64,000 nucleotides of DNA from Pycnococcus provasolii (taxonomy: Eukaryota > Chlorophyta > Pseudoscourfieldiophyceae > Pseudoscourfieldiales > Pycnococcaceae): NCBI GenBank assembly GCA_938743325.2, contig OW568874.1:186001-250000 (forward strand). Reading direction: 5' to 3'. The number at the start of each line of letters is the position of its first letter. The first letter of the stretch is position 1. Below, one piece after another: positions 52,845-55,705 of the stretch. Under the pieces are notes generated by a model, which saw only the letters and a program-made list of their open reading frames with translations, made no database searches and was not told the DNA's origin. The translations under genes were made by a program, and so were the position numbers.

Positions 52845-54272
52845 ATGGCGGCCTCGTTGGGTATGGCAGTAGCTCATAGTTCTTCTTCTTCCTCTTTTAG
52901 GATTCATAATAATAGTGGCTCGTCCTTGTCATGTCATGGGCGTCGTCGCCTTCAAGTCACTACGAAGTCGTCCTCCCCAACGGTACCGTCGATGTCACCG
53001 CCTACTCATAGTAGTTCGAAGACTAAAAAAGGTTTCGGGGGTACCAAAACGGGCACCGTGCGTATACCAGCTATGGTCGTGACGCAGAAAGTTGCCGCCA
53101 ACAAACTTAACAAAGTTAACGGCGTTGGGCGTGCTCCTTCTCGAGGATTTGGGGCACCACGACAACCGGGGGGAAAACATTCCTCAAAAACGCAGCAGGA
53201 TAATAAAAACAACAACAAGACACAGCACCACCACCGCAAGGTACCCAGAGAACTACCTCTTCTTGAGGCGATGGCGGCTCTCGAGTTCGAGTATGCCGAC
53301 CGAACAACCACAATACATAGAGAAGATGAGATGTCGTCGTCTCGTCACTCGCATCCACCACCACCACCACCACCTCACTCGCCTCCACCACCACCTCACT
53401 CGCCTCCCCCTGAGCCGGTGCTTCCGCCGCCAACACAGGCGCAGATACAGAGGCAGCAGATTCGGCTACAGCAGCAGCAGCAAATACGGCAAATGGAACT
53501 CCTGCAAGAAGAAGAGCAACTTCAGCAGCAGCAAACACCAAACCAAATCAAGTCGAAAGCTGCTGGCCTGGAAGAACTCTACGACTTTGTTGAAAAGCAC
53601 AGCACGTACTACCAGGGTGCGATACCAAGCCGAGACTACCTGAGCGACGCCGGACGTGCGGATCTCGTCAAGGTGGTGCGCCGCCTTGGGGGAGCACGAG
53701 CGGCGGCGGCGGCACTGACAAATTACAAGGCTGAAGTACTCGACACGCGCGTAACGCCCTCCTCGCCGCGGACAACACCCACTGTCGCCAAACCAGACAG
53801 CGAAGTCAGCAGCCAAGTTGCGGAAACATCCATGGCACACGAGTACCTCAGAGAGGGCACGCTGCCCGCGTTGCAGAAGCGAGCACGCCGTCCGTATTCC
53901 GCACGCCTGCGTGCTGCCGAGCGTCGCGTGCCACCTGAGCCGGTATGGGCAAGAATGGGAAAGCAGCAAGCGAAGGTGTCTCGCGACGCATTCGCCCGCG
54001 AGGTGGAGTCTGCTCTCAGCCGTGACCTGTGCCTGATGATTGAGCATCATACCACCGGACGTGAAACGGACGGGTTTTGGACGCTCTGGCGCACGCCGCT
54101 CAAGGCACCCACCGCCGAAGTCTCGGATGTGCTCGATGCGGCGGAGGCTTGTGCTCGCCATTACCCAACACATTTCATTCGTGCCGCCGCTTTCGACAAT
54201 GCGAAAGGTGGCGCGCAGACGATTGCTTTGACGTATCACGTTCCCACTGACACAGTGGAGCCGAACCAATGA
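52845..54272 (+). CDS. Plastid-type protein with a C-terminal Rubisco small-subunit-like domain
   Basis: 475 aa from ATG 52845. The N-terminus (MAASLGMAVAHSSSSSSFRI) looks like a chloroplast transit peptide. A Ser/Lys-rich part, Pro/His-rich repeats (165-205) and a Gln-rich coiled region (205-235) follow. Residues ~240-290 read IPSRDYLSDAGRADLVKVVR with RLGG, a motif type seen in other plastid proteins. Residues ~378-470 align with RbcS: AREVESALSRDLCLMIEHH, DGFWTLWRTPL (RbcS: YWTMWKLPLF), EVSDVLDAAEACARHYPTHF, IRAAAFDNAKGGAQTIALTY (RbcS: IRIIGFDNxRQVQ). The 22-residue loop of plant RbcS is absent, as in the cyanobacterial subunit and CcmM SSUL domains. It is too long for the catalytic small subunit. 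A Rubisco-binding role is inferred. Confidence 0.75.
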   Translation: MAASLGMAVAHSSSSSSFRIHNNSGSSLSCHGRRRLQVTTKSSSPTVPSMSPPTHSSSKTKKGFGGTKTGTVRIPAMVVTQKVAANKLNKVNGVGRAPSRGFGAPRQPGGKHSSKTQQDNKNNNKTQHHHRKVPRELPLLEAMAALEFEYADRTTTIHREDEMSSSRHSHPPPPPPPHSPPPPPHSPPPEPVLPPPTQAQIQRQQIRLQQQQQIRQMELLQEEEQLQQQQTPNQIKSKAAGLEELYDFVEKHSTYYQGAIPSRDYLSDAGRADLVKVVRRLGGARAAAAALTNYKAEVLDTRVTPSSPRTTPTVAKPDSEVSSQVAETSMAHEYLREGTLPALQKRARRPYSARLRAAERRVPPEPVWARMGKQQAKVSRDAFAREVESALSRDLCLMIEHHTTGRETDGFWTLWRTPLKAPTAEVSDVLDAAEACARHYPTHFIRAAAFDNAKGGAQTIALTYHVPTDTVEPNQ

Positions 54273-55323: not shown

Positions 55324-55705
55324 CTATGCTATCTTGTCGGAATATTCGGACGAATGAGCGGGAGAATGTATGGCGGCGCCGAAGAACGAAAAGAAGAAGA
55401 AGAAGAAAAGGGTTAGGGTTAGGGTTAGCCGGTTAGCCGGTTAGGGTTAGGGTTAGGGTTAGGGCTCCCTTTTTGGGGATACACCTGTTGTTCGTGTTTT
55501 GCCCTTGTCATAAACAACCCAGGGGCCAGGGGTTGCTTTTCCCAGTTTGGGGGCCTCGACCAGCAGCTGCCCTGCCCTGCCCGCCCTGGGTGGCGGCGGC
55601 GGCGCCTTTGCTGGCATCCCATTCCAAATCCCAATCCACTTGTGGTGGTTTCATCTGGAAACTAGTTAGTTTTTCGTCTCCCTCCCTCCTTCCCTCCCTC
55701 CTATC
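55324..55705. promoter_or_regulatory. Divergent intergenic region between YJU2 and eIF6
   Basis: About 380 bp. Contains AAG repeats, a telomere-like array at 55411-55464 and the GGCGGCGGCGGCG...CCCATTCC element at about 55590-55626 shared with the PCC1 promoter. Confidence 0.6.
55411..55464 (+). repeat. Interstitial telomere-like repeats (TTAGGG)n
   Basis: TTAGGG units in two blocks separated by GTTAGCCG units, in the head-to-head region of YJU2 and eIF6. Confidence 0.9.

Follow-up and report, generated by a model that had tools for sequence, protein, structure and literature searches.

A long protein of the green alga Pycnococcus provasolii ends in a Rubisco small-subunit-like domain and may act as a plastid Rubisco adaptor

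In cyanobacteria, CcmM and Rubisco activase (Rca) carry a small-subunit-like (SSUL) domain, which has the fold of the form I Rubisco small subunit RbcS and lacks its anchor. The hornwort protein RbcS-STAR is said to be a functional RbcS that bears a C-terminal clustering tail. Among the pyrenoid linkers EPYC1, CsLinker and PYCO1, the latter two have no sequence homology to EPYC1 according to the accessible portion of the source (PMC13159521). Here a further candidate is described from the green alga Pycnococcus provasolii, a 475-residue protein encoded in a 64,000-nucleotide window of its genome (the whole stretch analysed; contig OW568874.1, positions 186,001 to 250,000) that ends in a Rubisco small-subunit-like domain. 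It is tentatively read as a plastid-targeted Rubisco adaptor or scaffold that uses an RbcS-derived docking domain, a reading given slightly less than an even chance. A full-text literature search, with most subscription papers outside its reach, found no eukaryotic protein of this layout, nor any protein that organises Rubisco in a prasinophyte with a pyrenoid, and so agrees with the preliminary description of this DNA, which knew of no such green-algal protein.

Family matching, predicted structure and a conserved relative together indicate that a real RbcS-type domain ends this long green-algal protein. PF00101 (RuBisCO_small) matches residues 377-458 with an expectation value (E) of 6.8e-13 and 48.9 bits (cut-off 27), and is the sole Pfam domain above cut-off. 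The AlphaFold model of the C-terminal domain, compared by Foldseek, takes the RbcS fold, and the core motifs noticed earlier in the last ~95 residues are all found (WTLW 412-415, YPTHFIR 440-446, FDN 450-452 and Q458). A profile built on 13 canonical RbcS rows gives the domain 52.9 bits, compared with 4.0 for the best shuffle (797 of 1000 shuffles scored), and the match is therefore not due to chance. The 32.3-Mb assembly holds five PF00101 matches, of which only the window protein lies outside four ordinary RbcS genes. These four score 118-121 bits and all sit inside ~5.1 kb of one contig; in the three that were aligned the anchor reads YENMSFLPPL and the betaA-betaB loop is long, and the fourth is alike by reading frame. 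The window protein is thus additional to the normal small subunits of the alga.

Three protein searches, with the whole protein, residues 376-471 and residues 238-298, each yielded the same four sequences (P0002-P0005); the searches needed exact shared words, and the whole-protein search scored only the 7999 candidates richest in them, so that distant relatives may be missed. P0002-P0004 are 99-100% identical to the window protein over the aligned parts. P0005 is 47% identical across 49% of the query and keeps the same order of a short helix, a helical module (here named GRADL after its motif; Table 1), a linker and the small-subunit domain. PF00101 exceeds its cut-off in P0003 (49.6 bits), P0004 (50.3) and P0005 (55.5). 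Two scans of viral contigs returned no relatives. The JGI-derived P0004 deviates from the window protein over its first ~85 residues, up to the proline-rich repeat, which may reflect a strain variant, an alternative first part or an assembly join.

The descent of the domain, judged by sequence, is from RbcS, on a branch that the tree leaves undecided, and the SSUL family of CcmM is not its source. In this respect the comparison with CcmM drawn in the preliminary description is corrected. The window domain scores 47.6 bits against a cyanobacterial form IB RbcS profile, 40.2 against IA, 34.2 against green and 5.7 against SSUL (three rows), where the best shuffles over these and the canonical profile range from 4.0 to 7.8 bits and that of the SSUL profile reaches 6.9. 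The P0005 domain gives 60.4 (canonical), 53.9 (IB), 53.9 (IA), 37.8 (green) and 7.4 (SSUL); against SSUL, then, the window domain falls below the best shuffle and P0005 barely exceeds it. Leaving out the loop columns lifts the score of the window domain against the green profile to 41.8, and the apparent closeness to bacterial sequences is therefore partly a matter of loop length. A two-row domain profile searched against the PDB ranks cyanobacterial RbcS first (2ybv, 1.1e-12), and the four SSUL chains compared are absent among its 57 matches at E up to 10. In the domain tree (19 rows, 85 columns) the best topology pairs the window domain with SSUL, at a weak support of 66/68 flagged as long branches meeting, and with 1.75 changes per column the branch leading to the window domain is a long one. 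Constrained placements with green RbcS, cyanobacterial IB, IA or green plus IB RbcS are not rejected by the approximately unbiased test (p-AU 0.256, 0.302, 0.298 and 0.359, respectively). A recent copy of the alga's own RbcS was also considered and is disfavoured, the window domain being identical in 23 and 20 of 83 columns to two of its own RbcS rows, in 24 to 28 to plant rows and in 25 to 27 to cyanobacterial rows, differences that are small and constitute no proof.

Nineteen columns are conserved at 85% or more across the 13 canonical rows, and of these the window domain retains 8, P0005 retains 9 and SSUL retains 5 by majority. The other 11, altered or absent in the window domain, include two mild substitutions (Tyr to Phe, Lys to Arg). 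The N-terminal RbcL anchor of FETxSYLPPL type keeps none of its four conserved columns in the window protein and one in P0005, and Tyr32 is replaced by Ser and Asn, respectively (Tyr32 and Glu43 are numbered by our own mapping from alignment columns). Further losses in the window domain are the Pro that opens betaA, the Lys-Leu of KLP (now Arg-Thr), the Tyr before the betaB Trp (now Phe), one Glu of helix B and one Gln after FDN, while Glu43, the betaB Trp, Pro418, Leu430, Cys436, Pro441, Arg446 and Asp451 are retained. The betaA-betaB loop is 16 alignment columns shorter than in the alga's own RbcS and of the same length as in bacterial RbcS, and its E-to-W spacing matches SSUL; in green algae this loop typically spans 20-31 residues, as given in the sections available of PMC9833052. 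Column by column, the domain is SSUL-like in its losses and RbcS-like in what it retains.

Ahead of the domain, the PSRDYL...GRxDL, proline-rich and glutamine-rich sequences of the preliminary description are all present, the first as PSRDYL...GRADL (Table 1). Its 'long disordered arms' are right only in part. The full-length model, built on a five-row alignment, is largely low-confidence (predicted local distance difference test, pLDDT, 45.1), its first 134 residues are without secondary structure, and the stretches between the small-subunit-like domain and the GRADL module are probably flexible; however, the arms contain this helical module, which is strongly conserved between relatives. The whole protein has a computed isoelectric point (pI) of 9.9, and residues 1-130 one of 12.0, with no acidic residue in the first 118 and the first one at 119. 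Self-BLAST at E up to 1 gave the identity match alone, a comparison that short degenerate motifs could escape, and DNA repeats within the coding sequence are confined to Pro and Gln codons. No enzyme or chaperone domain lies above cut-off in Pfam, and NCBIfam gives no match whatever over the whole protein.

Table 1. Features of the 475-residue protein and their positions in the window.
Feature	Position	Strand	Basis
Coding sequence, 475 aa	52845..54272	+	Single exon, stop codon included; relatives P0002-P0005
Residues 1-134: basic arm, rich in Ser and poor in acidic residues, starting with a probable plastid transit peptide (from composition)	52845..53246	+	pI, model
Residues 135-160: short conserved helix LPLLEAMxALE	53247..53324	+	Identity to P0005; helix 138-160 in low-confidence model
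Residues 171-228: Pro-rich 171-196 and Gln-rich predicted helix 198-228	53355..53528	+	Poorly conserved in P0005
Residues 239-296: helical GRADL module, IPSxxYLSDAGRADLVKVVRRLGGA	53559..53732	+	Identity to P0005; weak relative on contig C36
Residues 297-376: basic linker, poorly conserved	53733..53972	+	Identity to P0005; pI 10.8 for 300-376
Residues 377-470: Rubisco small-subunit-like domain	53973..54254	+	PF00101, profile scores, AlphaFold, Foldseek
Residues 394-423: betaA-loop-betaB, LCLMIEHHxTGRETDGFWTLWRTPLKAP	54024..54113	+	Most conserved part of the domain; short loop

The window protein and P0005 are identical at 39 of 58 positions in the GRADL module (29 of 34 in its core, residues 260-293) and at 62 of 93 in the small-subunit domain. 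Elsewhere, among aligned positions, the figure is 21 of 74 in the N-terminal arm, 11 of 19 in the helix at 135-160, 13 of 54 over residues 161-238 and 17 of 54 in the linker. Inside the domain the betaA-loop-betaB block stands at 27 of 30, helix A at 7 of 14, helix B at 10 of 17 and betaC-D at 18 of 29, which gives a Fisher p of 0.0009 for the first block, chosen post hoc from the alignment; the limits of the GRADL core were likewise drawn after the alignment had been inspected. These two conserved islands may represent two binding faces, as judged from one pair of relatives. A GRADL profile found no credible match in the PDB, the best (E 0.027) being a BurrH repeat. The only paralogue found in the genome is a long open reading frame (ORF) on contig C36 (L100 1-2664) with a weak GRADL-like module (38% identity, E 0.046); it also gives weak Polyketide_cyc matches, the better of which, at 22.4 bits, is slightly below the cut-off of 23.4.

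A recruiter or tether of Rubisco would be the most economical reading of a docking domain joined to a second module and to basic arms (pI 12 and 10.8). The RbcS-derived domain would dock reversibly on Rubisco through its conserved betaA-loop-betaB face, as the SSUL domains of CcmM and activase do. A second partner, be it another copy of the protein, a membrane, starch or an enzyme, would be held by the GRADL module together with the basic arm. Rubisco could thereby be recruited or cross-linked, most plausibly inside the pyrenoid. Given a single docking domain, cross-linking would need oligomerisation or another Rubisco-binding region, and lacking both the protein should be a tether and not a linker. 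The pyrenoid of Pycnococcus is described as readily observed in the accessible text of PMC5656628, which makes a pyrenoid role plausible. The further proposal, that RbcS was turned into the docking domain of a plastid scaffold and that, independently of carboxysomal CcmM, pyrenoid organisation in the Pycnococcus lineage came to follow an SSUL-like principle, is rather doubtful.

Several observations weigh against a Rubisco adaptor. The protein has one small-subunit-like domain and, in self-comparison, no internal repeats, unlike CcmM or EPYC1; the Gln-rich helix, a potential oligomeriser, is absent from P0005; the plastid address would follow from composition only; and the domain falls outside the SSUL family whose mode of action it would share. 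It is conceivable that the domain instead fills the place of RbcS in some holoenzymes as an alternative small subunit, its arms decorating, linking or tethering Rubisco. The domain is after all RbcS proper in its profile scores, assembly of form IB Rubisco is not critically dependent on loop length (PMC9833052, in the part available), and Pro-rich C-terminal tails are encoded in two of the ordinary RbcS genes, so tailed small subunits do occur in this alga. With the anchor gone, Tyr32 replaced and most of the conserved columns changed or missing, such a subunit is nevertheless considered unlikely. Those same lost columns, the long branch and the weakly similar module in the C36 protein, with its weak Polyketide_cyc matches, might be expected of an RbcS fold repurposed without Rubisco function, for example in a structural or regulatory protein of the plastid whose defining element is the GRADL module, but conservation in the domain peaks on the betaA-loop-betaB face, a region that contacts RbcL in ordinary RbcS (as stated in the accessible part of PMC9833052), and repurposing of this kind is thought improbable. 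A factor in Rubisco biogenesis or regulation, making transient use of the domain, for instance in RbcL8 core recognition or activase recruitment, and having no role in pyrenoid architecture, would suit one docking domain plus a second conserved module (a recruiter more than a multivalent linker) and has a parallel in the SSUL domain of cyanobacterial Rubisco activase (6has), but it sits poorly with the Pfam and NCBIfam results and is likewise thought unlikely.

The ORF is counted from the first ATG and does not require an intron. Around it lie genes for a TrmK-like methyltransferase, the splicing factor Saf4/Yju2 and eIF-6, together with a GNAT-like ORF (19.6 bits, below the cut-off of 20.7); these are ordinary eukaryotic neighbours, and the window is therefore nuclear chromosome (contig C14 of the assembly). 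A short, interrupted run of TTAGGG-type repeats occurs chromosome-internally at 55410-55464 of the window, between the Yju2 and eIF-6 genes. On contig C2, the two tailed RbcS genes (L002 1441-1944 and L003, the latter in reverse) carry a 35-residue Pro-rich C-terminal extension ending in YNYSW, possibly a Rubisco-clustering tail, and the remaining two end at the core or at most 3 residues beyond it. Contig C8 carries a nuclear Rubisco-large-like ORF of 644 aa (L008 877-2811, minus strand; PF00016, 75.9 bits), probably a form IV Rubisco-like protein, whose C-terminal part is cupin-like to the eye. On contig C19 (L010/L102) a phytochrome domain lies 7 bases ahead of where the last part of a cryptochrome FAD domain is found, with broken frames, in what looks like a dualchrome-type gene or remnant; the dualchrome of Pycnococcus provasolii was reported as a gene without introns (PMC8209157, available sections).

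Were the protein indeed a Rubisco adaptor, the CcmM principle would have a second, independent use, here in a eukaryote and through an adaptor derived from the small subunit. Direct tests of how pyrenoids assemble in early-branching green algae would then come within reach, and engineering could gain a small folded module that docks on Rubisco. With form I RbcS (PF00101) the window domain shares fold and sequence family and the core E43, W, R and D, and differs in that it terminates a 475-residue protein, has no anchor, has Tyr32 replaced and has a short loop. It resembles the reported hornwort RbcS-STAR in that a small-subunit domain is fused to sequence that could organise Rubisco, but here a long N-terminal extension is borne by a degenerate small subunit. 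Like EPYC1, CsLinker and PYCO1 the protein is basic, largely low-confidence in the model and possibly Rubisco-acting, whereas EPYC1 uses repeated short motifs (PMC9833052, in the portion available) and the window protein has a folded RbcS-like domain and no protein repeats in self-comparison. With the SSUL domains of CcmM and Rca the window domain has in common an anchor-less RbcS fold, a short loop and poorly conserved joins to other modules; it differs in being single, with no tandem copies and no gamma carbonic anhydrase or AAA+ domain in Pfam. By analogy, the protein would act like these SSUL proteins and yet stand outside their family.
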